Shown one piece after another: positions 1-50,897 of a stretch of DNA of 50,897 nucleotides; position 1 is the stretch's first letter, and each line of letters begins with the position of its first letter. Made by a program: the position numbers and the translations under genes. Source of the stretch: an uncultured Planctomycetaceae bacterium (GTDB lineage Bacteria > Planctomycetota > Planctomycetia > Gemmatales > Gemmataceae); contig CALARU010000301.1 of assembly GCA_937888715.1 (NCBI GenBank), positions 1-50,897 on the forward strand, given 5' to 3'. A model generated the notes under the pieces. The model ran no database searches. It saw only the letters and a program-made list of their open reading frames with translations, and was not told the origin of the DNA.

Positions 1-8
1 CCCGACTC

Positions 9-3000
9 TTAATCTTTAGGAGCCGGGTTATTGTTTATACTTGAACCATTTATCTTATCCCCCGTGAAATGCAAATAAAACCCTTCGGGCTTTTTACTCT
101 TTGAAAAATCAATTTCGATAAGATTCGACCCTGGGTTAAGATCTAAATCAAAAGTTGAAGTAGTAACTGATTTTTTGATTTTTTGCTCCGTTTTTAGGAC
201 TGTGTTGATTCTTAATTCGAAGGAATCACGAGAGGTAATGGTTACTAAGGACTTAGATTGGTTATTCGAGTTTAAATAGAAGTGAAAAGAAAGTTGTTCC
301 GAGGTTCCCTGACCGTACTTCTGTAAATCGAAAAAACCATCATTTCTTGCAGCGATCAATACGCTTTTGGAATCATCCAAACCTTTATTTACCTTGATTT
401 GACCAGCATAAGATGCGCCCGAAAAGGTTTTGTTATTTGTAGGGTCTTTAAGGAATGAAACCAAATCCAACAAATCTCTATAACTTAGTTCGCTGGTAAT
501 GCTGTTAGGCATCATGGAACCTTTCAGAGAAGTTAAAGAAGCAATTTCATTTTTACTGAAAGTCGATATTGTTCCTGTTGCGTCTGCCAACCGGATCTGA
601 TTTTGGGCAGATCTGATTTTTACCCCGATGTAAGTCTTGCCCGTTTTAGTTTTTAGTTCGAAAGTACTATGGGCTTGGTTTATTTCGTGCGCAGGATCTA
701 GCAACGAACGGATTATTTTTGCTGTTTCCATTTTTTGTATAAAGGTTAAATCCGGGCCTATCGTGGTATCGTTTTTGTTTATTGCATGGCAAATAATACA
801 AGATTGACTGTTGGCATTTAGAAAAGTTTCTTTTCCTCTTTCGAGGCTTGCGGAAGATTTCAAAGAGGCTTCAAAAAGCTGTAACTGTGAAAGGTTACTA
901 TCTGCTAAGAGGGCTTTTTTAAGTAGCAAACTGTTTAAGTCTTTTCCTTCAGAAGATTTTAGGCCAAACTTTTTTAGGCATTCGGATATGGCGGGCAATA
1001 AATTGGGGTCGCATTTTCCAGAATCGAAGTATGCAAATAGAACTCTTGCGCCTGATGGGCTTTTTTCTAATAATTGCAAAGCTTCACTTTTTAAAGTATC
1101 AGGGAATAAAACCGAACCAAGCAAACCTTGAATACTTTCAGATGCTTTATCAGGGTCAATTGCAAATAAGGCCTGTAATGCAGTTTGTCTTACTTTTAAG
1201 CTTTCTCTTTGCGACCTAGTGCCGCTTAAAATGTTCATGATTATAGGAATAGATTCGTTGGTTTTTAGAACTGCAAGGGTTTCTAAAAGGGGGATCTTTT
1301 CTTCGTCCTGAATTTCCTGACTACTTATCCGTGAAGTAAGCTTTTTTGAATATGAACTAATGTTGGCGTTTTTGATCATTTTAATGCAGGCTATTTTGGT
1401 TTTGATGTTTTCATCTTCTAGGCAGGTATCTAAAAAATTACCCCACTCTTTAAAGGAGGCATTAGGAAAACAGCTTAAAGATTCTAATAAAGCAATTTTG
1501 ATTGGCGCTTCCATGGTGGGTTGCTTAAAGCAATAAAGAGCGAGTTGGGAAAGAATGGCATTGGGGATTTGCTTATAGTTTTTAAGGCTTTTTAGTAAAT
1601 CGACTATCTCAGAAGCAGTGATGTTTTGATTTTCAAGCCATGCAAGGGTTCCTTCTAATGCGGGGGTAGTGCGCATCATTATTTGGACTTCTAGGATTTT
1701 CCTGATGTCTTTTTTTACGCCTGTATCACCAACTGCAAGTATGCGTTCCATACCATCTTTGCCTGTTAATTCTAAGGCGCGAGCAAAAACCTTGAGCATT
1801 CTAATATCTGATCCCTCATAAAATAAGATCGAGTTTACCAAACTATCTGCAGATCCAGGAGCATTGTTTTTTCCCATAGCAAGTGTGATTGCATTTCTGA
1901 GTTCGGGCGTATCAGATCCAAGATGTTTAAGTAAAACATTGAAAATTGAATCGCTACCAGGAGAGGCAAACCGGCATAAATATTGTGCTGCCAGAAGTTG
2001 AAGGTTGGGGTCTCCACCTGCAAGTATGTTTTCGCATATCGATTGAACCTCTTTATCCCAGAAATGAGCAATTGCTTCTAGCGCGCGCAATTTTGGCTCT
2101 GAAGCTTTATCCTCATCTTTAAGGAATTTTACTAACGATTCAACCGCATCTCTGCCTTTCCGAATTAGAGCATTTCTAGATGCGACTTTTATGAAGTTTT
2201 CTTCTGAATCTAGAAGTGCGATTAAATCGCCAACTGGTTTTTCATCAATCGAAGAAAAAGAAGTTGAGCTTCGAAGAGGGATTTCAGGATCATTGGCAGT
2301 TCCTTGCCAACGGATTCTTAAAATTCTCCCACCTACTCCTAATCCTTCAGTTTTGTTAGAGCAGCCTTGATCCACAATATAAATTGCGCCATCAGGGCCT
2401 TGTGTTATTTGGGAAGGGAAAAACGTGGGGTCGGTAGAACTTAGGAAAGTAAAATATTCGCTGGAAAGGAAGGTGCTTTTGTCTTTGGCAGGAAAGATAC
2501 CAAGAATTTCATGGGAGAGACCATCTGTAACAAGAAATAGGTTTTTGAATTTTTGAGGTAACCTGTTATCGGTATAGGCATGGGATGAAGTTGCATGAAC
2601 TTTAGGTAAATTTATGGCAGAGTAAGGGGCATCATCCCCCTCCATTAAAATCCTGAAAAGGTCTGGATCGCAACAATTGGAGCGGTGTGCAAGATGCCAG
2701 CCGAAATCGAATCCTTCCGTTAAGTGCAGAAGTCGAGCGCCCGCAGGTTTTGCACCTGAAGAAATTTGATCATCGACTGAAAACAAGTTGCCTTGTAAAT
2801 CGAAGGAAAGATTTCCTTGGGCTTGGCGAATGCCGGTCGAATAGATCTCAAGGTTTTTGCCATCTGGTTTGCAACGAGCGATCCCACCGGTGCGAAGGAC
2901 CGTTATTTTTTTACCATCGGTGCCTTCAAGGAGGGAGTCTCCAGGCGGGAAATGAAAATAAAGCCAGCCATCTGGACCAAAGGTGAGCGCATTAACTTGA

Positions 3001-3557
3001 TATTCATTAAAACCTGCGATGCCTTTAATGATGATTTCAGATTTCATTTCAAGTCCGCCATCAGGCTTGATTTTATAGCGAAGAATGGATCCCGAATCTG
3101 CAAGGTAAATAAAAGAATCATGGGTAACAAAAGCAGAAGGGGAAAAGGGTTCAAGTAGAGTGGTAGGGGATTCCCATAGCCCAGTGGTTTTGTTTATAGA
3201 GAGAGTTTTAATTTTATCAGGTATGGGTTTTTTAAAAGCAATCCCTTCTTTTAAGTTCCCTATAGGCCAAGAGGAAGCTTGCAGTTTCTTGGTAAAATTT
3301 TGGCTTCGCTCTAAGACAAAGACTTTGCCATCGTCTGAAAAAGAAATTGATGATGGGTTAATGATGTTTGGGTTTTGAGCAACAACTTCGACTTTAAATC
3401 CTTCAAGAACTGCGATGCCTTTAAGTGCCGGGTTAAACTCCCCTTGATCGATCATGTTTGATTTTAATTTTTTGCTGGCTTGTGCAAAAGCTATTGATTC
3501 GAATGGGTTAAACCCGATGAAAAGCAAAATAAGTGAAACAAGAATGAGTTTATACAT
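9..3557 (-). CDS. PVC-type haem-binding membrane-bound dehydrogenase with HEAT repeats
   Basis: An exported 1182-aa protein. A hydrophobic signal peptide (about residues 1-26) is followed by a beta-propeller of the PVC dehydrogenase type (about 45-420, with the family-typical EGFKVEVVA opening). Next come HEAT/ARM-like helical repeats (about 440-900) and a c-type cytochrome segment with CIICH near residue 920 and the downstream IGPDLT motif. A C-terminal beta-rich domain of about 130 residues ends the chain and may bind carbohydrate or protein. Members of this family are common in Planctomycetota and are presumed periplasmic redox proteins, but their substrates are unknown. It is the last gene of a five-gene operon, 21 bases after the upstream protease gene. 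Both ends lie inside the window. The family assignment is firm; the function is inferred only from the family. Confidence 0.9.
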   Translation of the reverse strand: MYKLILVSLILLFIGFNPFESIAFAQASKKLKSNMIDQGEFNPALKGIAVLEGFKVEVVAQNPNIINPSSISFSDDGKVFVLERSQNFTKKLQASSWPIGNLKEGIAFKKPIPDKIKTLSINKTTGLWESPTTLLEPFSPSAFVTHDSFIYLADSGSILRYKIKPDGGLEMKSEIIIKGIAGFNEYQVNALTFGPDGWLYFHFPPGDSLLEGTDGKKITVLRTGGIARCKPDGKNLEIYSTGIRQAQGNLSFDLQGNLFSVDDQISSGAKPAGARLLHLTEGFDFGWHLAHRSNCCDPDLFRILMEGDDAPYSAINLPKVHATSSHAYTDNRLPQKFKNLFLVTDGLSHEILGIFPAKDKSTFLSSEYFTFLSSTDPTFFPSQITQGPDGAIYIVDQGCSNKTEGLGVGGRILRIRWQGTANDPEIPLRSSTSFSSIDEKPVGDLIALLDSEENFIKVASRNALIRKGRDAVESLVKFLKDEDKASEPKLRALEAIAHFWDKEVQSICENILAGGDPNLQLLAAQYLCRFASPGSDSIFNVLLKHLGSDTPELRNAITLAMGKNNAPGSADSLVNSILFYEGSDIRMLKVFARALELTGKDGMERILAVGDTGVKKDIRKILEVQIMMRTTPALEGTLAWLENQNITASEIVDLLKSLKNYKQIPNAILSQLALYCFKQPTMEAPIKIALLESLSCFPNASFKEWGNFLDTCLEDENIKTKIACIKMIKNANISSYSKKLTSRISSQEIQDEEKIPLLETLAVLKTNESIPIIMNILSGTRSQRESLKVRQTALQALFAIDPDKASESIQGLLGSVLFPDTLKSEALQLLEKSPSGARVLFAYFDSGKCDPNLLPAISECLKKFGLKSSEGKDLNSLLLKKALLADSNLSQLQLFEASLKSSASLERGKETFLNANSQSCIICHAINKNDTTIGPDLTFIQKMETAKIIRSLLDPAHEINQAHSTFELKTKTGKTYIGVKIRSAQNQIRLADATGTISTFSKNEIASLTSLKGSMMPNSITSELSYRDLLDLVSFLKDPTNNKTFSGASYAGQIKVNKGLDDSKSVLIAARNDGFFDLQKYGQGTSEQLSFHFYLNSNNQSKSLVTITSRDSFELRINTVLKTEQKIKKSVTTSTFDLDLNPGSNLIEIDFSKSKKPEGFYLHFTGDKINGSSINNNPAPKD

Positions 3558-3578
3558 AGATAGGCACCCGGAGTAGTG

Positions 3579-4391
3579 TTAAATGCCATTAGCTGGAATT
3601 ACGAGAACTGTTTTTATTTTGTTATTGCTGAGAATTCGAAGTTTCGATTGTTCGTTTATGTTGGATTTGCTGGAGGCGTAAAAAAGATCTTCAAGTGAGT
3701 CGGTCCAAATATTGTTAAATGAAAGAATTCGGTCGCCTTTTTTAAGTCCTGCTTTTGCCATCACGCTGTTAGGCGCTACGGAAATAATATCCAAGCCGTC
3801 CGCGGTATCAGTTTCAAGTTTTTGAACTTCGAACCCCCAAACACCTTTGGAACATAAAGTCTCGCGGGTTTTATTGTTAGCCATAAGGCGATCCATCATG
3901 GCTTTGATAGTATCCTTAGGGATGTATCCGTTGGGGGCAAAAGCGATGGATGAATTTTTGTAGTTAATGGTTAATTTGTATCGTGAGTAGGTTGAGAATC
4001 CAATGATGCCTTCGATGGGGCCAAAGAATTTAGACATGACTTTGATTGTTGGATGATCCATGACAATTACAGAATTGTTTTGAGTTTTTAAATTGCCGAG
4101 TTCAAGTGATTTAACATTGGCTTGCCCGCCTGCACCAAACAGGGCAAAGCCCAACGAAGGTTTGATTACCTTGGCTTCGGTGGCAATCTTGCTGCTGATA
4201 AGGGTGACAGGGGCGCCAGTATCAAATAACAGTCGATAAGGGCCTTTGTCGTTAACCTTAACGGAAACAACGATATGGCCTGTTTTCAAGATTTCCAAAG
4301 GAACATGAACAGTTTCTTGCGCGCTTACTGTTGAGCAGAGAAGTAAAAAGAAAATACTTGATTGCAAACCTAAGCGATTTATGGAAGGCAT
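3579..4391 (-). CDS. exported retropepsin-like aspartyl protease with PDZ domain (copy 2)
   Basis: A 270-aa protein with an N-terminal signal peptide (about residues 1-24). A retroviral-type aspartic protease fold follows, with the catalytic-type motif DTGA at residues 57-60 and a hydrophobic-hydrophobic-Gly stretch (EGIIGF) near residue 128. The C-terminal PDZ domain (about 200-268) has a KAGLKKGDRIL carboxylate-loop region. The protein is likely periplasmic or cell-surface; whether it is proteolytic or only a binding protein is unknown. Its start lies 2 bases from the stop of its paralogue, so translation is probably coupled. The two paralogues share layout and the GPF/GPY...DTGAPVT core, which points to an old tandem duplication. 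Confidence 0.85.
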   Translation of the reverse strand: MPSINRLGLQSSIFFLLLCSTVSAQETVHVPLEILKTGHIVVSVKVNDKGPYRLLFDTGAPVTLISSKIATEAKVIKPSLGFALFGAGGQANVKSLELGNLKTQNNSVIVMDHPTIKVMSKFFGPIEGIIGFSTYSRYKLTINYKNSSIAFAPNGYIPKDTIKAMMDRLMANNKTRETLCSKGVWGFEVQKLETDTADGLDIISVAPNSVMAKAGLKKGDRILSFNNIWTDSLEDLFYASSKSNINEQSKLRILSNNKIKTVLVIPANGI

Positions 4392-4393
4392 GG

Positions 4394-5236
4394 TTACAAC
4401 CCTTTCCCAGGTGTAAGTTCTAATGCGAGGATTTGTCTTTTTCGCATGATCTCGATTTGTATTTTTTTTAGTTCTGGAGTTGATCGATACATTTTTGAAA
4501 GATCATTCAAGGAAGTTATTTCGGCATCATTATATTTAAGGATTAGATCGCCCTTTTGGATATTAACTTTGAACGCGGGGCTATCTTTTAGCACATCGAT
4601 AACCATTAAGGGGTTTGAATCTGGGTCGATGATAATGCCTAATGATCCACGAAGAACAGGGGATGAATCTTGTTTTTTTCCTGTTAATGCACCAATGGTT
4701 TTCATAAAAGATCCAAGAGCATCAAGGCTTGATCCGGAGTTTTTTCCTGAAACTCCAAGGGGAAATCTAGGTTTGAAATCTAGGGGCGTCCAAGTCATGC
4801 TATCCTTGGCGACATCAATTTCTATTTTGTGTTTTGCGAGTAAATCGTAGCCAATGAGGCCATGAAGTTCTAATCCTCCAAGAGCCATTCCATTCATGCC
4901 AACAAGTTGGAAAGGGGTTTCGAGCTTGACGCGCAGGTTTTCAAAGCGAAGTCCGCCTTCAAGAATGAATTTATCGAGAACGCACCAGCCGTTTTCATCA
5001 GGTTTTAGCCCGAGTGATTTGCCTGGTTCAGCAGCAAAAAAAGTGACAGGTGCACCCGTATCAAGGATGAAGTTGAAAGGGCCTTTGTTGTTGATTTTTG
5101 CTCTGACAATTAAATGGCTGGATTTATTGATGCGCAAAGGGATATGGATAGGCAATGCTTGGTCCGTAGCTTCCATGCTCAAGATAGGTAAAAGAGCAAT
5201 GAAAAAAGCGATCCAAGCCTTGCGAATGAAAAGCAT
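4394..5236 (-). CDS. exported retropepsin-like aspartyl protease with PDZ domain (copy 1)
   Basis: A 280-aa protein from the ATG at 5236. An in-frame TTG at 5257 would sit directly on the upstream stop and has no ribosome-binding site, whereas the ATG opens straight into a signal peptide (residues 1-22). The aspartic protease motif DTGA is at residues 59-62, and a second hydrophobic-Gly element (HGLIGYD) follows near residue 120. A C-terminal PDZ domain (about 195-275) contains KVNIQKGDLIL. It differs from its neighbour in a longer linker containing a Gly/Ser-rich stretch before the PDZ domain. It lies third in an operon of exported proteins. The family call is secure, the substrate unknown. 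Confidence 0.83.
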   Translation of the reverse strand: MLFIRKAWIAFFIALLPILSMEATDQALPIHIPLRINKSSHLIVRAKINNKGPFNFILDTGAPVTFFAAEPGKSLGLKPDENGWCVLDKFILEGGLRFENLRVKLETPFQLVGMNGMALGGLELHGLIGYDLLAKHKIEIDVAKDSMTWTPLDFKPRFPLGVSGKNSGSSLDALGSFMKTIGALTGKKQDSSPVLRGSLGIIIDPDSNPLMVIDVLKDSPAFKVNIQKGDLILKYNDAEITSLNDLSKMYRSTPELKKIQIEIMRKRQILALELTPGKGL

Positions 5237-5257
5237 CAGAGAAGTACTTTCTTCCAA

Positions 5258-5710
5258 TTACTTGATTGGAGAATAGTCAGTAGGGTTTAAGAAAACCGAC
5301 TCAACTTTTTTGACAAGCTTCCCGTTTTTTTCAGAAGCATCCCTTGCAGAATTCCAAACAGGGTCAGCGCGGAAGCCTTTCCAAGAGGCGTCAGCAGCTT
5401 CTTTGCTTGGGTAAGCAAGAATGTAAACCATCATATCTTCAGCTTTGGTTTTGTCTGTAGGTTTCCAAAAGCCAATGATGGTGATCCCATGTTTTTCAAA
5501 AAGTTTGCATGTGTGATCACGGAATCTAGCATGAAGGGCGTCCATTTTGCCTGGTTCAGCGTAGTAGGTTCGCATTTCGAAAATTCGCTCGGTCTTGGAT
5601 GCATTCACGGTTTTAGCCTCTTGTGCACTAATGGAAGAAACGCTTGAAAGGGTAAGTGTGGTTAAGATTGCCAAAAAAACAATCGTCCGGTTCTTAAAGC
5701 TTGCGATCAT
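5258..5710 (-). CDS. exported NIPSNAP family protein
   Basis: A 150-aa protein. The start at 5710 is chosen because the longer reading frame to 5794 would run into the upstream gene, while the Met at 5710 begins a clean signal peptide (about residues 1-30, ending SISAQ). The mature part is a single ferredoxin-like NIPSNAP domain with the family-typical opening FEMRTYYAEPGKMDAL and a WxGFRADPVW segment. NIPSNAP proteins are dimeric alpha/beta-barrel-like proteins with no settled enzymatic role. Exported versions are common in Planctomycetota. The neighbours are a PQQ-type propeller upstream (22 bases) and the aspartyl protease pair downstream (21 bases). Confidence 0.85.
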   Translation of the reverse strand: MIASFKNRTIVFLAILTTLTLSSVSSISAQEAKTVNASKTERIFEMRTYYAEPGKMDALHARFRDHTCKLFEKHGITIIGFWKPTDKTKAEDMMVYILAYPSKEAADASWKGFRADPVWNSARDASEKNGKLVKKVESVFLNPTDYSPIK

Positions 5711-5732
5711 GTGTGAATCCTTGTTAAAAAAG

Positions 5733-6980
5733 TTACTTGACGGGTTTACCAATGCAAAAAAGATGGTCTTTGCCTCGAATGTAAAGCTTGTCATTAGCTA
5801 CAGCCGGGGTAGAGAAAACAGGTTCTCCCAAAGAGTTTTTGTTGATCATTTTGAAACTACCTTCAGCCTGAAAAATATAAACATCTCCATTTTCGCCAAT
5901 AGCAAAAATATTGTTGTCGATCATCAGTGGAGAAGCAGTAACGGGACTGTCGAGCCTTTCGCTCCATAATTCTTTGCCACTGACAGCAAGGTTGCACATG
6001 GCCATTCCTTTGTCTGTAACACTGAAAATGTATTCTTGTTTGGAGATCATGGAAGGGACATAAGGGAAAGACTTGCGGTTTTCCCAAAGAAGGTTGGTTG
6101 GTGTAACATCACCTGTGCCGCCAAGTTTGACAGCGATAAGGTGCCTATCGCCTGCTCCATCGCCACTGCATGCCAGGATAACGCCAGCGGCAACCACTGG
6201 TGATGCAACAGTGCGCAGTGGCATTTTTGAGAAGCTCCAGGTATAGGTCCAGTTTTCGATGCCTTTATCTGCATCATAGCTGGTGATGCCCGCTGTGGTC
6301 GCGACGAGGAGTTCCAATTTTCCGTTTTCAAGAGTATTGAACAAAGGGGTAGAATAACAAGCTCTGAAAGCTTTTCTGGGGATATCCCAAAGGGTTTTTC
6401 CTGTTTTGGAATCAAAGGCAAGAAGTTGAGCCGCGCCATCTTGATCATTGTTAAAAATCACTTTGTTGCCGTGAACGATGGGGCTATGACCTGGTCCATG
6501 TTGGCTAATAAAGGCACCGAGATCTTTTTTCCAAACTTCTGCCCCTTTGAAATCATGCGCATACAATGCAATTTTTTTGCCATCCCAGATGATGTTGTAA
6601 ACTCTTTCGCCATCGGTTGCAGGTGTGCAGGAAGCTAAAGAGTTTTTAATATGTGTTTTAGCGACACTAGCGTTGAAGGACTTTTTCCAAAGAAGTTTTC
6701 CAGTGTTGGAATCAATGCATTGAAGAAATCGTTTGGTGCCATCGGGAAGGGAAGAATGCAGAAATAGATGGTTGCCCCAGATAACCGGTGAAGAGTTTCC
6801 GACATCAGCAAGGGGTAATTTCCAGAGGATATTTTCGGTGTTGGAGAATTTGAGGGGAATGTTTTTGGAGTCCGAAATTCCGGTGCCATTGGGGCCACGA
6901 AATCTGGACCAGTTGGTTGTATCAGCCAAGCAAAGTGCGGGTGAAATCAGAACTAAAAAAGTAAAGAAAATCAAGCGCAT
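5733..6980 (-). CDS. exported PQQ-binding-like beta-propeller protein
   Basis: A 415-aa protein from the ATG at 6980. That start has a GGAG ribosome-binding site about 8 bases upstream; an in-frame ATG at 7004 lacks one and would add residues before the signal peptide. Signal peptide about 1-20, then a repeated propeller with motifs such as FRGPNGTG, GKLLWKK, GKTLWD and GKELWSE, typical of PQQ/quinoprotein-like or BamB-like blades. Soluble periplasmic localisation is expected. Whether PQQ is bound cannot be seen; many planctomycetal members are structural. It is the first gene of the five-gene exported-protein operon behind the promoter at 7030-7058. Confidence 0.85.
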   Translation of the reverse strand: MRLIFFTFLVLISPALCLADTTNWSRFRGPNGTGISDSKNIPLKFSNTENILWKLPLADVGNSSPVIWGNHLFLHSSLPDGTKRFLQCIDSNTGKLLWKKSFNASVAKTHIKNSLASCTPATDGERVYNIIWDGKKIALYAHDFKGAEVWKKDLGAFISQHGPGHSPIVHGNKVIFNNDQDGAAQLLAFDSKTGKTLWDIPRKAFRACYSTPLFNTLENGKLELLVATTAGITSYDADKGIENWTYTWSFSKMPLRTVASPVVAAGVILACSGDGAGDRHLIAVKLGGTGDVTPTNLLWENRKSFPYVPSMISKQEYIFSVTDKGMAMCNLAVSGKELWSERLDSPVTASPLMIDNNIFAIGENGDVYIFQAEGSFKMINKNSLGEPVFSTPAVANDKLYIRGKDHLFCIGKPVK

Positions 6981-7029
6981 TGGAATAAACTCCGAAATAG
7001 TCAATTATTGTTTCATCAATTCAACCAGC

Positions 7030-7058
7030 ATTATAACATCCCGAATTTCAAAGAACAA
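7030..7058 (-). promoter_or_regulatory. sigma70-type extended -10 promoter for the exported-protein operon
   Basis: Read on the minus strand, TTGTTC (7053-7058) is followed by a 17-base spacer and a perfect TATAAT (7030-7035). The spacer ends TGT, giving the extended -10 form TGTTATAAT. Transcription would begin near 7023, about 43 bases before the ATG at 6980. The -35 matches the consensus at three of six positions, compensated by the extended -10. The same nine-base element recurs before the sigma-factor operon at 14028. No other candidate is better placed for this operon. Confidence 0.55.
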
Positions 7059-42534: not shown

Positions 42535-45500
42535 TTACTTCGACTTATCTTTGCTTTCAGGTCCTTCAACGGTGACTGCCATTACGATTGGTGAGGTTGT
42601 GTCTGGCCCTTTTACAAATTCAATATCCTTGATGATTTCAGTAGGCCTTTTGGGGCGAACTGCAAGGTATCGAATCTGCTGGCCCCGCAATGAAAATGCA
42701 AAGGTAGAATCAGGTACATCAATTTTACGAATGTAGTCTGCAAAGACTTCGCCATTCTTCAACAAATGATCTTCGGTTTTTCCATCAGCATAATGAAGTC
42801 TGACAATCATGGAGACTGAACCCTTTGGGGTTGCAGGGAATCCCCATCCGCTAATCCCACTTAATAAATGGATAGCGTTGGCGGGGCCATTACATGCCAG
42901 TTTGACCTGCTTGGGCATCTTTGGTGGGATGGTGCCGTTGGTTCCATGCAACATGATTACATTGGGGTATTTATCACCCTGTGGATCGACAAGATTAAAA
43001 GGAATGCCCTGAAATACCTTGGGTTTCCAATCGGGGAATATCAGTCTTTCAACTGTAGCTTCTTCACTGTGAAACATTCCTTTGGTACTTACGATGGTTG
43101 CAATTTTATCAAGTGGTAATGGAAGGAACTTTCCTCGTTGCGTAAGGAATTCGAGAAGGTTGACGAGATCGGGTTTTGAAAGTTGTTTTTCAAAACCTTC
43201 GGGCATGAGCGAACGATCGGAAGCTTTAATTTCATCGATGTCATCTCGCAGAACAGTCTGCTTTTTTGCTTCGGTATCAATAAGCTCGATGGAAGATTTT
43301 GTTTCTGATGCAAGCATACCTGTAAGTATTTTTCCGCCTTTAGTGGAAACAACATATTGTCGGAAATTGCCTTCAACATCTCTGTTCGGGTCCATGATGT
43401 GGATGAGTAATTCTTTTTTGGGGTGTGCAGCCATGCCTGTCATGTCAGGGCCGATTTTTACGCCTTCCCCCTGATGCTGATGGCATTTGGAGCACTGGTT
43501 TTTGTAAACGATTTTACCAAGATTTGCATCTCCAGATTGAGTAGTTGCAAACATGGAGTCATCGATGACCTTTTGCCTGTCAGCGTTGGGCAAACCACCC
43601 CCACGGGCAAGTATGACTTTTGCTTTGTCGGTTATTTTCTTGTTGCCGGTTTGCAAAAGAGCTTGCTTCTGGTCAAGGCTTAATTCGGAAATTCTTAGTT
43701 TGTTGTTTTCAAGCGATGCGATCAATGCTTCAGTCCAGGTGGCTCTGGAAAGAAGTATACGGATCGCAGTCTGTCTGAGATTAGGTGTCCAATCGGGGAA
43801 GCGTTCTACCATTGCATTGCCTGTTTCTGATTGATCAGAAAGTGATACCGCTTCAAGCATTCCCAGCCCGACTTCAGGTGAAAGTTGAGCCGTGATTAAT
43901 TCGAGAATCGCTTTTGCAACAGAAGAATCAGAAGAGCCAAATTCACACGCTTGTTTTGCGGAGGAGATACGCTCGGTATCGGTTTGCTTGGTGTCGGATG
44001 CCGCTTTTAAAAAGCCTTGTACGATTACCTTCGATTGTTCTGCGAGGGATTTGCTGCCCCATTTCTTGCCTAATTGGGCGAGTTGCCCCCTAGCTGCGAT
44101 CGGGAGAACTACGAAGAGATCCTTAAGGGCTTTTTCCGTACGGGCATCTAATTTTGGGGGTTGGTTTGCGGGCCATCCTCGTGCCAAGCCTTTGAGCGTG
44201 GCTGTTTGAATCAGCGGTTCTGATTGCAATAGTTTTTCAAGCAGGTTGGCAATGTTTTCATCGGGCTTGCCTCGGGCGTGATGCTCTGCAACTCTTTCAA
44301 CAATGGTTAATAATTCAATTGAGGGCGGTGCGTTTTTATCGGTGACGGAATTCAAGAATAGGACATCATTGTTTGCTGCTGCAGTGGTGACGCCATCAAG
44401 TAGCCATTTATCCAAGGGGCGTTTAGGCGACTTTAGCATTTGGGCAATTGCCTTGCTTGATTGTTCTGAAGGGGGCATATCGGATAACGCCAAAAGGGTC
44501 GCAAGTTGAACCTGCGCATTGGTATCACCCAAAAGATTTGCTTTAAGAATTGCATCAATCGAGCTAGCTTTTAAAGGAAGAACTTTCAAAGCGTTTAACC
44601 GAACTCCCGCAGAGGCGTGGGTAAGAGCAGCAATTGCGACTTTCGTAGCAGGAGAGTTTTCTTCTTCGAGGGCGCCTAGTCCTTTTAAAGTCCAAAGCGC
44701 ATGAATAACGCAAGGGGTTAATCCTGCGCCATCGATTTTTGTTTCTTTGGCAAGTTCGATAAGGGCAGGGATGGCCCCTTTACTTTGTTTTTCAACTAAA
44801 AGCCTTTGAGCGTGCCTACGCCAGAAGAAGTTATCGTTTCGAAGAGTCTCAACAAGTTTACTGGAGTCTGCGGTTGTCAGGTTTACATATGCACTGTTTT
44901 TGCCTTCTTTATGAACAAGCCTATAAATACGGCCATGTTTTTTGTCGCGCAGATTAGTTTCGTAAGCATTACCTTTTCCCGTTTTGAATCCAGCAGGCGT
45001 GGGGTTATGTTGCACAATGAAGTTGTACCAATCGATGACCCATACATTTCCATCGGGGCCAACTTCTGCAACGATGGGTGAACTCCATTCATCGTCACTT
45101 GCAACAAGGTTGAATGCATTGCGCGAAGTAAAGCTTGCACCTTCAGGCGTTATGGGGAAAGTTGCAACCAGATGCCCTGTAGGTTCGGTTACAAAAGCAG
45201 TTTTGTTCCAATAATCAGAAGGGTAGTTTCGGGCGGTGTAAAGTGCATGGCCTGCTGCAGCGGTAAACTTATCGTGATGATCCACCTGCCTGATTTGTTT
45301 GGTGATGGGGTGGATTGGTGCGCTACCTGCGATACCTTCGAGAACGCTGCTCGACCAGCCACGAACTTTTTCGTAATAACGGTTGGGAATGGGCAGATGC
45401 ACACTCGGATTGCCGTTGGCGGTGGAACCAAAAAGAAGCCCTTCTTCACTTAGGCCAACTCCCCAGGAATTATTGTTGGTGTTGCGAAGAAATTCGATTT

Positions 45501-46902
45501 TAGAACCATCAGACTTCATGCGGTAAAAACCAGTACGGAAAGATTGCTTTTCATCGCCTACGGTTCCTGCAAAGCCAGAGTACCCAACCATGCCATAGAT
45601 CCAATTATCTAGGCCGTAGTTCAGATTACTTGGCCCAGCGTGGGTGTCGCCTGTGCTCCATCCCGTGAAAAGAACTTTGCGTTCATCGGCTTTGTCATCG
45701 CCATTGGTGTCTTTAAGGAAAAGAGTATCTGGGGCCTGATGCACAATGACGCCGCCGTTTGCGAAAATCAAACTTGTGGGGATACTAAGCTTGTCAGCAA
45801 AGGTTGTGAATTTATCAGCAACATTGTCGCCGTTGGTGTCTTCGCAGATAACGATTTTGTCTCTGCCCTGGCCTTGGGGTTGTAATTCGTTGGGGTAATC
45901 AATGGTGAGTGCGACCCATAAACGACCGCGCTCATCCCAATTCATCGCGATGGGCTTGCCTTGTAGATCAGGTTCGGAAGCGAAGAGTTTAAGTTCGAAT
46001 CCCTCGGGAACGATGTAGTGTTTTTGCGCCTCTTTGGGGTCAAGGGGCTTTTGCATTTTCCTGATGTTATCGCCCATTTTGCCCCATTGTTTGTTAGCAG
46101 GGTAAAAGGGAACATCAGCTTCAACATAATCAAAAGGCTTAAGATTTTTAGGAAGTTCAGTCATCAAGGTCTGATCAGAAAAAGCTGCAACTTTAGAAGG
46201 GTCGCCATTGGTTGCCCATCGAATGCCGCGTTCGAGAAGATTTTGAAATCCTGGGTTGGACCAAGTTCGGGCATCATGGCCCCAGGCTGTATAGAAAACT
46301 TTTCCCTTACCTTGGGTTCGCACCCAAGTCCAAGGCTCGGATCCTGAAGCATCTTTTCTTTCTTCAAGGACAATACGATCCTTGGGATTATGTTTGGTGT
46401 GAACATAAGTTTCATCCCAACTTTCAAAACTTTTGTAACCCTTCATGATTGGGTGAGTGGGAAGAATGTTATCAACGCGGAAAGTGCCTGTGCCATGTTT
46501 GGAAAATTGAGCGCCAACCAGATCGATGTATTTAGGCGAATTTAAAAAGCAGTAACTAGCGCAATGCAATGGAATCAAGGCATTGCCCTGTTCAACATAA
46601 TCAAGCATTGCTTTTTCTTGTTCAGGCGAAAGCGTTGTCAAGTTGGCGAAAATAACCAACCCTTGATAAGAGTTGAGAATCTTGGGGGTCAGGCTTTCTA
46701 CTTTGTCTGTGTAGACAAGGTCAATGCCCTTGGCTGCAAGAACAGGCTGAATTTGCCGAAAGCGATCGTTGGGCTTATGGTGCCCATTGTCGCCTAAAAA
46801 TAACAGCTTGATTTTGGTGTCCTGCGCCCGGATTACTGGATTTAAAGTGATCCCAAGAGTTACCGCGAGGAGAATTGAAACGCTGAAAATAAACTTCTTC
46901 AT
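42535..46902 (-). CDS. ThuA-fused PVC-type haem-binding dehydrogenase
   Basis: A 1455-aa exported protein with a signal peptide (1-26). Domains in order: ThuA glutamine-amidotransferase-like domain (about 30-235; LFLGDNGHHKPNDR, LIPLHCASYCF, FYTAWGHDAR), PVC beta-propeller dehydrogenase (about 300-690; PEGFELKLFASEPDLQGKP), HEAT repeats (about 690-1110), c-type cytochrome with CSKCH near 1134 and KIGPDMTGM, and a C-terminal beta-sandwich (about 1270-1450). ThuA relates to trehalose/disaccharide utilisation, where 3-keto sugars are formed. It is 41 bases downstream of the Gfo/Idh gene and probably part of its operon. The function is inferred from domains and context. Confidence 0.9.
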   Translation of the reverse strand: MKKFIFSVSILLAVTLGITLNPVIRAQDTKIKLLFLGDNGHHKPNDRFRQIQPVLAAKGIDLVYTDKVESLTPKILNSYQGLVIFANLTTLSPEQEKAMLDYVEQGNALIPLHCASYCFLNSPKYIDLVGAQFSKHGTGTFRVDNILPTHPIMKGYKSFESWDETYVHTKHNPKDRIVLEERKDASGSEPWTWVRTQGKGKVFYTAWGHDARTWSNPGFQNLLERGIRWATNGDPSKVAAFSDQTLMTELPKNLKPFDYVEADVPFYPANKQWGKMGDNIRKMQKPLDPKEAQKHYIVPEGFELKLFASEPDLQGKPIAMNWDERGRLWVALTIDYPNELQPQGQGRDKIVICEDTNGDNVADKFTTFADKLSIPTSLIFANGGVIVHQAPDTLFLKDTNGDDKADERKVLFTGWSTGDTHAGPSNLNYGLDNWIYGMVGYSGFAGTVGDEKQSFRTGFYRMKSDGSKIEFLRNTNNNSWGVGLSEEGLLFGSTANGNPSVHLPIPNRYYEKVRGWSSSVLEGIAGSAPIHPITKQIRQVDHHDKFTAAAGHALYTARNYPSDYWNKTAFVTEPTGHLVATFPITPEGASFTSRNAFNLVASDDEWSSPIVAEVGPDGNVWVIDWYNFIVQHNPTPAGFKTGKGNAYETNLRDKKHGRIYRLVHKEGKNSAYVNLTTADSSKLVETLRNDNFFWRRHAQRLLVEKQSKGAIPALIELAKETKIDGAGLTPCVIHALWTLKGLGALEEENSPATKVAIAALTHASAGVRLNALKVLPLKASSIDAILKANLLGDTNAQVQLATLLALSDMPPSEQSSKAIAQMLKSPKRPLDKWLLDGVTTAAANNDVLFLNSVTDKNAPPSIELLTIVERVAEHHARGKPDENIANLLEKLLQSEPLIQTATLKGLARGWPANQPPKLDARTEKALKDLFVVLPIAARGQLAQLGKKWGSKSLAEQSKVIVQGFLKAASDTKQTDTERISSAKQACEFGSSDSSVAKAILELITAQLSPEVGLGMLEAVSLSDQSETGNAMVERFPDWTPNLRQTAIRILLSRATWTEALIASLENNKLRISELSLDQKQALLQTGNKKITDKAKVILARGGGLPNADRQKVIDDSMFATTQSGDANLGKIVYKNQCSKCHQHQGEGVKIGPDMTGMAAHPKKELLIHIMDPNRDVEGNFRQYVVSTKGGKILTGMLASETKSSIELIDTEAKKQTVLRDDIDEIKASDRSLMPEGFEKQLSKPDLVNLLEFLTQRGKFLPLPLDKIATIVSTKGMFHSEEATVERLIFPDWKPKVFQGIPFNLVDPQGDKYPNVIMLHGTNGTIPPKMPKQVKLACNGPANAIHLLSGISGWGFPATPKGSVSMIVRLHYADGKTEDHLLKNGEVFADYIRKIDVPDSTFAFSLRGQQIRYLAVRPKRPTEIIKDIEFVKGPDTTSPIVMAVTVEGPESKDKSK

Positions 46903-49040: not shown

Positions 49041-50897
49041 CTAAAACAGGCAAAGGTGCAGGTAAAAAGAAAGCACCAGAAGATCCTAAGCTGGCGGGAA
49101 AAGAACCGCCAGCTACTTCTCCTGCCCAAATCAAAACCCTCAAGGGTTTTAAAGTCGAGCTTCTTCATTCGGTTCCCGCTGCTACTCAAGGCTCTTGGGT
49201 TTCAATGTGTACCGATCCCAAAGGTCGGTTAATTGTTTCAGATCAGAATGGCGGACTTTTCCGCGTTACACCTCCCCCGGTTGGCGATTCAAAAACTCCT
49301 ACCCTAGTTGAAAAAATACCTGCTGATATTGGTGAAGCTCAGGGGCTTCTCTGGGCTTTTAACAGCCTTTATGTGATGGTTAATAAGGGTGGTAAGTATG
49401 AGCACGGCTTGTATCGAGTGCGAGATACCGATGGCGATGATCAATTAGATCAGGTCACCATGCTGCAGAAGTTTTCAGGCGGTGGTGAGCATGGTCCTCA
49501 TGCCATTTTACTTTCTCCCGATGGTAAAAGCCTTGTTGTAGTTGTCGGTAATCAAACCAAGTTGGTTGAATTCAAATCTAGCAAGGTTCCAGTTCGCTGG
49601 GGTGAAGATCATCTGCTTCCCCGTATGCCAGATGGCAGGGGATTTATGGCAGGGGTAATGGGGCCAGGCGGAACCATTTACAAAATCGATCCCGATGCGA
49701 AGAACTGGGAAATACTAGGCGTTGGATTTCGTAATGAATACGATGCTGCATTTAACAGGCAGGGCGAATTATTTACTTACGATGCTGATATGGAATGGGA
49801 TTTCAACACGCCTTGGTATCGCCCTACAAGAATTTGCCATGTTACAAGTGGCGCCGAGTTTGGCTGGAGAAATGGTGCGGGTAAATGGCCTGCCCACTAT
49901 GCAGACAGCCTTCCCGCAGTCGTAGATATCGGGCCAGGTTCTCCTACAGGGGTAACCTTTGGCTACGGGGCCAAATTTCCTGCGAAGTATCAGGAAGCGT
50001 TTTTTGTTTGCGATTGGAGTTACGGCAAAATGTATGCAGTACATCTTTCTCCTTCTGGAAGCACCTATAAAGCTGAAGTCGAAGAATTTATTTCGGGTTC
50101 TCCTTTGCCTTTGACTGATTTGGTTGTGAACCCTAAGGATGGAGCATTGTATTTTGCAATCGGTGGCAGAAAGACAAAATCGGGGCTTTATCGTGTAACT
50201 TATACTGGGGAAGAATCCACTGCACTTTCGAAAGGTGATTCTAAAGGTTCTGAAGATCGGGCAATACGATTGGGGTTAGAGAAGTTTCACGAACCTAAGC
50301 ATCCTGAAGCGGTTGCAAAAGCATGGGATTATCTTGGCAGCCCTGATCGATTCATCCGCTATGCAGCGAGGGTCGCACTTGAGCACCAAGATGTGAAACT
50401 TTGGCAGGACAAAGCTCTTGCAGAAAAAGATCCCAACAAAGCAATTACTGCTTTGCTTGCTCTGGTTCGATCCACATCTTCCGATCCCCTGCATAAAATA
50501 GAACAAGTTGATCAGAAATTGAAAACGCAAATCATTGCTGCGTTACAATCTATCGCATTTGATAAGCTTGATGACACGCGAAAGCTCGATCTTTTAAGAA
50601 CTATGGGTGTGCTTTTTGTTCGCACGGGTTCGCCTGACGAGGCTACAGCAAAAATGCTTGCAACCCAGTTGGATGCTTTCCTTCCCGGGAATAACAAAAC
50701 TGTTAATGCGGAACTTTGCCAGATGCTGGTTTACCTTCAATCACCAACAGTGGCGATAAAGGGTGTTGCGCTTCTTAAAAATGCAGCAACGCAGGAAGAC
50801 CAGATGGAAATCGCCCGGGCGTTGCGCATGCTTCGTACTGGCTGGAATCCTGAACTTAAAAAAGATTACTTTTCATGGTTCATCAAGGCCGCTGGTT
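49034..50897 (+). CDS. PVC-type dehydrogenase domain in the -1 frame after DUF1080 (partial, runs off the window)
   Basis: I translated this frame by hand from 49025 to the last base and found no stop. It opens with a Lys/Pro/Ala-rich linker (TKTGKGAGKKKAPED), then TLKGFKVELLHSVPAATQG, SWVSMCTDPKGRLIVSDQ and further PVC-type propeller segments (GGGEHGPHAILLSPDGK, GVGFRNEYDAAFN, ICHVTSGAEFGWRNG). From about 50270 helical ARM/HEAT-like repeats follow. The CxxCH haem motif would lie beyond the window. The frame is preceded by UGA at 49022-49024 and has no ATG, GTG or TTG before an ATG at 49205, which is inside the first blade. Expression is thus best explained by frameshifting from DUF1080. A sequencing error or a decaying fusion gene is possible. 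Confidence 0.75.
49089..49114 (+). repeat. perfect 9-bp hairpin downstream of the frameshift site
   Basis: AGCTGGCGG (49089-49097) and CCGCCAGCT (49106-49114) enclose the loop GAAAAGAA. It is not followed by a T-run, so it is not an intrinsic terminator. It lies within the linker coding region, 54 bases after the slippery heptamer. It may be a stimulatory or regulatory element, or chance. Confidence 0.45.

Follow-up and report, generated by a model that had tools for sequence, protein, structure and literature searches.

The window analysed here is contig C301 in its full length of 50,897 bases, from the genome of an uncultured Planctomycetaceae bacterium of the Gemmataceae (G000; 4.56 Mb in 414 contigs). 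One end of it is occupied by five co-directional genes on the minus strand, which make up a unit from position 7030 to position 1 and encode a PQQ-like β-propeller, a NIPSNAP protein, two aspartic proteases called PepB and PepA here, and a large haem protein (Table 1). The two proteases, each composed of a retropepsin-like domain and an HtrA-type PDZ domain, are the main subject of this report and may be the unlike halves of a single exported enzyme. A preliminary description of the locus had given the gene order, the coordinates and intergenic gaps of 22, 21, 2 and 21 bases, all of which are borne out on the sequence. It had also assigned a signal peptide to every member, and all five proteins indeed begin with charged residues, continue with a hydrophobic core and have small residues at the cut site, as judged by a simple scan for these features with no trained predictor.

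Table 1. Features of the five-gene unit, in the order of transcription
Feature	Positions	Strand	Basis or remark
Promoter: TTGTTC (7058-7053), 17-base spacer, extended -10 TGTTATAAT (7038-7030)	7030..7058	-	sequence
Exported PQQ-like (BamB-type) β-propeller, 415 amino acids (aa), ATG start	5733..6980	-	PQQ_2, 96.6 bits against a curated cut-off of 27.6
Exported NIPSNAP protein, 150 aa	5258..5710	-	NIPSNAP (PF07978) match
PepB: signal peptide, retropepsin-like domain, HtrA-type PDZ; 280 aa, ATG at 5236	4394..5236	-	
PepB codon of the catalytic Asp59, DTGA motif	5060..5062	-	sequence and alignment
PepA: signal peptide, retropepsin-like domain, HtrA-type PDZ; 270 aa	3579..4391	-	
PepA codon of the catalytic Asp57, DTGA motif	4221..4223	-	sequence and alignment
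Exported DUF7133 propeller - HEAT repeats - CxxCH haem domain protein, 1182 aa	9..3557	-	
CIICH haem c motif of the 1182-aa protein	786..800	-	sequence
Terminator-like hairpin over the stop codon of the last gene; arms 28-20 and 8-1	1..28	-	contig ends at base 1

The PepB-PepA protease pair

Both proteases score above the cut-offs for their two domains. For Asp_protease_2 (PF13650, cut-off 24.3) PepA reaches 33.2 and PepB 27.0, and for PDZ_2 (cut-off 27) the scores are 35.7 and 46.5, respectively. The DTG motif is found in both window proteins, and its Asp and Gly are invariant in every aligned row that has letters there (56/56 for PepB and 56/56 for PepA, one further PepA row being without letters at this point). 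The hydrophobic-hydrophobic-Gly motif of the psi loop takes the form EGIIG in PepA, with Gly 128 and 131 invariant, and HGLIG in PepB, with Gly 126 and 129 invariant. Each protein in addition has invariant residues of its own, namely D112-H113-P114 and W229 in PepA, and E93-G94, Q110 and G113-M114-N115 in PepB.

AlphaFold monomer models of PepA and PepB have a mean predicted local distance difference test score (pLDDT) of 86.5 and 85.1. In these predicted structures the protease half of PepA matches the Rickettsia retropepsin 5c9d with a Z score of 12.8 and a root mean square deviation (rmsd) of 2.9 Å over 114 residues, and PepB matches 5c9b by Foldseek with E 6.5e-6 and an rmsd of 4.1 at rank 48; another fold listing for PepB is dominated by PDZ matches, with no retropepsin among its best 50 rows. 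The modelled PDZ domains of both proteins match HtrA1/DegS with Z scores of 14-15. Profile searches of solved structures returned 323 and 339 matches, the best 60 of each being all PDZ, with no protease-domain relative among them. Membership of two established classes was considered and rejected: the HtrA/Deg model TIGR02037 gives 35.2 bits for each protein against 416.2 and covers only residues 147-264 of PepA and 210-274 of PepB, and pepsin family A1 does not apply to PepA and PepB, which have one protease stretch each and not two lobes.

The distribution of the pair was followed in 79 relatives, searched with four of the operon proteins and then with the PepB profile. At E<=1e-20 PepA is listed in 57 and PepB in 56 of the 79 (a PepA tally of 61 at E<=1e-3 includes PDZ-only matches), and presence or absence of the two agrees in 78 of 79; the sole mismatch, G035, is a contig end, and six genomes of the order are without both proteases. 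The surroundings of PepA were taken from 56 other genomes, which with the window make 57, and the genes at these loci were assigned by profile matches. PepB is directly followed by PepA in 55/57 genomes, the misfits being G011, where PepB and PepA are on different contigs, both at contig ends, and the cut locus of G035. In a second collection, consisting of the best 80 of 157 loci and overlapping the first set (41 of the 80 are apparently common to both), the same adjacency is seen in 78 loci and the two misses fall at contig ends. With start codons chosen by a rule made for this analysis, 42 of 55 loci have a distance of between -4 and +4 bases from the PepB stop to the PepA start; long gaps are found at L042 (783) and L068 (207), and at L052 PepB is split over two frames. 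The protease pair is the stable core of these loci while the surrounding genes change widely. A plasmid collection was also searched with PepA and no record matched, so that a plasmid origin is unsupported. Three records titled Candidatus Kuenenia stuttgartiensis or Bacteroidales bacterium (L096, L162 and L142) carry Gemmataceae-type protease loci and look mislabelled or mixed; the PepA of L096 is 94% identical to that of the window.

PepA and PepB are similar to each other over their full length (hhalign probability 100, identity 22%). In a tree built from 38 pairs, every second of 76, they form separate clades supported by Shimodaira-Hasegawa-like approximate likelihood ratio test (SH-aLRT) values of 99 each, and distant proteins of other families form a third group (93) that holds single-copy relatives from families f72 and f83 as well as a very distant pair from f94. 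This tree is unrooted, some of the other-family proteins sit on long branches, and it was, like the operon tree mentioned below, a quick tree without bootstraps. If the root lies in the third group, duplication of one gene would predate the divergence of families f1, f2 and f3, with both copies retained since. The f94 genes (L088:637-1800 and 1804-2967) are a second tandem aspartyl protease-PDZ pair, very distant from PepA/PepB.

The two halves differ further in family f3 (L066-L072), where PepA has DLG or DVG in 7/7 loci and PepB keeps DTG or DSG, the three PepB proteins with DSG all being paired with a DLG PepA. In f1 and f2 PepA has DTG in 49/49; both counts were made in the aligned 57-genome set, in which L049 is without letters at the motif. 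The Thr or Ser of the motif belongs to the bond network between the two retropepsin halves, and the f3 copies have therefore become unequal, as their PepA has lost this residue.

Two other arrangements are found elsewhere in the phylum. Family f30 (L076-L082, L090 and L095) has open frames of 540-676 residues that contain two protease stretches and a PDZ region in one chain. The motif order is DSGA first and DTGA second in 9/9 loci examined, and two Asp_protease_2 stretches are present in 6/6 of those scanned with Pfam; the nine loci come from 9 of 16 genomes matched, the protease-type G193, G208, G315, G333 and G341 being left out and two others being PDZ-only. The f30 genes have as neighbours a gene with a helix-turn-helix match and a radical SAM gene, which suggest no client. 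Families f72 and f83 have instead one full-length match per genome to the PepA and PepB profiles, among the matches listed, in five genomes (G188, G217, G231, G279 and G301); with the PepB profile every candidate was scored. In G301 the protease part is all that is found among the matches listed with the PepB profile, G356 and G257 have PDZ-only rows among the matches listed, and for L086 a partner is possible since the locus begins at a contig end. Two of the f72 copies adjoin a pfkB-type kinase gene, which suggests no client.

Operon structure and neighbouring genes

The propeller of the first gene was rejected both as a PQQ-dependent alcohol dehydrogenase (TIGR03075; 39.1 bits, far under the cut-off of 480.05) and as BamB (TIGR03300; 77.9 bits, under the cut-off of 285.2). 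The NIPSNAP protein scores 64.1 bits with PF07978, above the cut-off of 22.3. The 1182-aa haem protein reaches 90 bits with DUF7133 (cut-off 27) and 85.2 with the TIGR02603 haem domain (cut-off 68.15), stays under the cut-off of the TIGR02604 N-terminal domain (93.2 against 122.2), and has a glucose/sorbosone dehydrogenase match of 16.7, under the cut-off of 25. Two further window proteins match its profile, one at 42535-46902 with ThuA, DUF7133 and a CxxCH site, and one at 49205-50896 that runs off the contig. In G002 the haem protein gene (L017:10774-14396) is interrupted by a frame change, which in a genome that is 73% complete could be error or decay.

Co-occurrence of the five genes in other genomes had been set as a test by the preliminary description, and it is observed: all five are linked in 11 of the 57 protease-carrying genomes, belonging to five genera, and the full set is also present in 15/80 loci of the second collection and in one more that is cut by a contig end (6 of these 16 lie outside the overlap with the first set). 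The arrangement being conserved in five genera, a chance grouping was rejected. The window order of the five genes is shared by all seven genomes of the window genus and by G034, and in G005 the last gene is cut by the contig end. In G020, G027 and G030 the five genes are present too, with NIPSNAP and PepB separated by a superfamily-1 helicase gene; a helicase gene inside the set is also found in 9/80 loci of the second collection; at E<=1e-60 the helicase was not found in the seven genus genomes and G034. The earlier statement that the operon is made only of exported proteins thus applies to the window genus and G034, the three other genomes having the helicase gene within the unit. The helicase of G020, the only one whose sequence was inspected, shows no export signal by eye. 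Superfamily-1 helicase genes also track NIPSNAP in several genera (L036:8456-10366, L043, L044 and L075).

In the tree of PepA plus PepB the five-gene arrangement falls in two places. The PQQ-NIPSNAP genes are present away from the proteases in L074 and L075, and in G017 NIPSNAP is accompanied by the helicase. G047 is without both proteases, but its PQQ-NIPSNAP contig stops where they would follow, and their absence may therefore be an assembly gap. Overall the operon is real and inherited, yet it looks like two joined modules, since PQQ-NIPSNAP occurs without adjoining proteases and NIPSNAP occurs with the helicase in G017.

The extended -10 promoter of the preliminary description finds support in the genus. 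The elements TTTGTTCTTT and GATGTTATAAT, located 5' of the first gene, are identical in the 6 aligned members of the 7-member genus, although a sigma-70 scan did not list them; the spacer differs in two of the six, much of the leader is variable, and the promoter block was not seen in G034, which lies outside the genus. At the other end of the unit the nine pairs of the hairpin are conserved over 7 genomes (genus and G034), with 96.8% of pair cells paired and two-sided, compensatory changes in 5/9 pairs. Pairing and two-sided changes of this extent were reached by 0/500 shuffles and by none of the slid pairings; the number of pair types is ordinary, being equalled in 246/500 shuffles. The shuffles leave kinship in, and the two-sided changes in G004 and G034 are plain on sight. 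The hairpins of the relatives have no clean T run afterwards. It counts against both elements that the sigma-70 and terminator scan lists neither of them (TTGTTC fits 3/6); the scan yields 6 promoter-like sites, with 14.5 in shuffles, and 7 terminator-like ones, with 8.6. In G001 the next open reading frame begins about 480 bases past the stop codon of the last gene. Judging from the conserved promoter elements, the conserved hairpin and this space, a single transcript is likely to run from just below the -10 element to the contig end.

In other genomes the pair has a different redox neighbour. A gene for a fusion of a redoxin, a CxxCH cytochrome c and a copper type II monooxygenase borders it in 21/57 genomes (e.g. 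L022:6472-8403), and the copper monooxygenase fusion gene lies within about 1.4 kb of it in 27/80 loci of the second collection, among them L114, where the copper protein is about 1.3 kb away, and L139, which has a second copy on the other strand. The copper protein family is present in 78/79 genomes; G063 alone has 22 matches and G067 has 21. The nearest copy in the window genome is on another contig, C238, and the copper protein has therefore not been lost there. A haem or copper neighbour of either type is seen in 44/79 tree rows. Part of the candidates per genome was scored for the haem protein (9), the propeller (23), the copper protein (15) and the phylum search (8), and the counts that come from these searches are to be read as "at least".

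The proposed heterodimer and its alternatives

The retropepsin-like fold carries half an active site, so that two copies must meet. It is proposed that PepB and PepA meet each other and form an exported heterodimeric retropepsin-like aspartic protease with an HtrA-type PDZ domain on each subunit and redox proteins as clients, a reading to which a probability of about 0.55 is given. Asp59 of PepB and Asp57 of PepA would supply one catalytic Asp per subunit, and the PDZ domains, one per subunit and of the HtrA/DegS type, would bind the exposed C-termini of envelope proteins and feed these to the shared active site. In the window genus the pair is probably co-transcribed with the propeller, the NIPSNAP protein and the haem protein. 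Exported redox proteins would be the likeliest clients because the pair adjoins the redoxin-cytochrome-copper-monooxygenase protein in many other Gemmatales; the neighbourhood makes a link of the pair to such proteins plausible, and gives a modest hint that the enzyme serves their quality control or maturation.

It is the co-presence and adjacency of the two genes, the asymmetry in f3, the separate clades and the f30 fusions that together favour the heterodimer over two separate homodimeric proteases, which would have arisen by duplication, act on different substrates and stand together only through a shared operon. Such homodimers have precedents in the Rickettsia and Pseudomonas retropepsins, which the papers on them, in the parts consulted, describe or model as one-protein dimers (PMC4140852, PMC12239564), and PepA and PepB each retain a complete half-site of their own. 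They are nonetheless rather unlikely here: one protease is found without the other in only 1/79 genomes, and there at a contig end, despite widely changing neighbours; the gap between the genes is mostly very short; and loss of the motif Thr from the f3 PepA in 7/7 loci while the Asp stays would be odd for a homodimer. The same loss could be taken to mean that at least one of the two proteins has ceased to be a protease and does no more than bind C-termini with its PDZ domain, and Rawlings and Bateman point to yeast Ddi1, in the part of their text consulted, as a protein with a retropepsin-like fold that is no peptidase (PMC2761423). With the Asp and Gly of both motifs invariant in each family, this is quite improbable. 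Several points nevertheless count against the heterodimer. Two homodimers would be compatible with all the data, and the structure models are of single chains. The Rickettsia retropepsin dimerises with itself, and its family is described as active only as symmetric dimers in the text consulted (PMC4140852). Co-inheritance in one operon would also yield adjacency and co-loss, and the correlation between PepA and PepB distances (r = 0.83 over 76 loci) is mostly shared history and cannot separate contact from kinship. As the tree is unrooted, a sister relation of PepA and PepB requires the root to be placed among the other proteins. The f30 fusions fit the PepA profile better than the PepB profile in both lobes and so are apparently a separate duplication and an analogy only, and at L076 the PDZ scores are under the Pfam cut-offs. 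The client link is drawn from the neighbourhood, in which 35/79 tree rows, some on short contigs, have neither type of redox neighbour and the helicase gene is inside the operon in three of the five genera.

Regarding the operon as a whole, the preliminary description had read it as a redox enzyme matured by its own proteases. The last gene does have a haem motif and a DUF7133 propeller, and elsewhere the pair borders the redoxin-cytochrome-copper-monooxygenase gene or lies near it. That reading is nevertheless doubtful, as neither a cleavage site nor a processed form is known, the large protein beside the pair lacks the haem motif in L036 and L047, the propeller falls short of a PQQ dehydrogenase, many tree rows are without a redox neighbour as stated above, and the glucose/sorbosone dehydrogenase match is under its cut-off. 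Its wider suggestion of joint action by all five proteins gains from their co-occurrence and suffers from the proteases being tied far tighter to each other than to the rest. There is not far from an even chance that the operon neighbours have no shared task at all and that a PQQ-NIPSNAP(-helicase) module and a PepB-PepA(-haem protein) module were joined in part of the Gemmataceae and are co-transcribed. Each module is found apart from the other (L074, L075 and G017), the helicase gene intrudes in G020, G027, G030 and in the second collection, and the genes upstream are also syntenic in the genus, G020, G030 and G034, so that vertical inheritance accounts for much of the operon conservation. 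On the other hand, five genera share the gene order and its short gaps, conservation extends to the promoter elements within the genus and to the hairpin within the genus and in G034, and a haem c motif is mostly present in the haem protein here and likewise in the pair's alternative neighbour. This two-module view concerns the operon and is compatible with a heterodimer of PepB and PepA.

More tentatively, and at somewhat less than even odds, the Planctomycetota may hold all three stages called for by the duplication-and-fusion account of pepsin: a single half-enzyme with PDZ (f72 and f83), an obligate heterodimeric pair (the window order and f3), and a one-chain, two-lobed form with PDZ (f30). 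The pair would then be the missing heterodimer stage, surviving to the present, with labour already divided in f3, where PepA has lost the motif Thr.

Comparison with known systems

The combination of an aspartyl protease and a PDZ domain in PepA and PepB is that of the aspartate protease-PDZ family (AP) in a 2019 census of PDZ proteins over 1,474 genomes, where the family is uncharacterised and comprises 49 proteins in 48 organisms (PMC6411480). By these numbers AP proteins occur nearly always once per genome, whereas the window has two diverged adjacent copies. Planctomycetes contribute 2 AP proteins in 1 organism to the census, a pair from which its text, in the parts consulted, draws nothing (PMC6411480). 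The present pair gives this family a functional hint and cautions annotators that two genes may be one enzyme.

The solved match for both window protease domains is RC1339/APRc of Rickettsia (5c9d and 5c9b), which shares the retropepsin-like half-enzyme fold. It differs in being the product of a single gene, with predicted transmembrane segments and self-dimerisation, and the text of its paper makes no mention of PDZ (PMC4140852). RloA1-3/RimB of Pseudomonas also include exported retropepsin-like proteases, the RloA proteins, encoded in an operon with a role in osmotic stress; RloA is modelled as a one-protein dimer and cuts polyglutamate, and PDZ is again not mentioned in the paper's text (PMC12239564). 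HtrA, DegP and DegS have the PDZ domain type of PepA and PepB in common with them but possess a serine protease domain, none of which is matched in either window protein. The last gene of the operon shares its propeller, HEAT repeats and CxxCH domain with the PVC-type haem proteins (TIGR02604/TIGR02603, DUF7133), but is under the curated TIGR02604 cut-off. In the literature searched, which included few subscription journals, no paper on retropepsins in Planctomycetes was found, nor a description of a strict pair of unlike half-enzymes or of a single, paired and single-chain series in one phylum.

The route from a one-lobed aspartic protease working as a homodimer to the two-lobed pepsin type is an old question, and in the text consulted the origin of pepsin is proposed to be duplication and fusion of a half-enzyme (PMC2761423). 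With an unlike half-enzyme pair, single-copy relatives outside it and one-chain forms elsewhere, the intermediate step becomes testable at the bench, and the pair may illustrate the passage of such enzymes from a one-gene to a two-part form. Pepsin A1 and its bacterial homologues have two unlike lobes with one Asp each, as the proposed pair would have (PMC2761423). The lobes of pepsin A1 are part of one chain while PepB and PepA are two chains, and the single-chain forms of f30 have a pepsin-like layout yet match retropepsin-like Pfam families.

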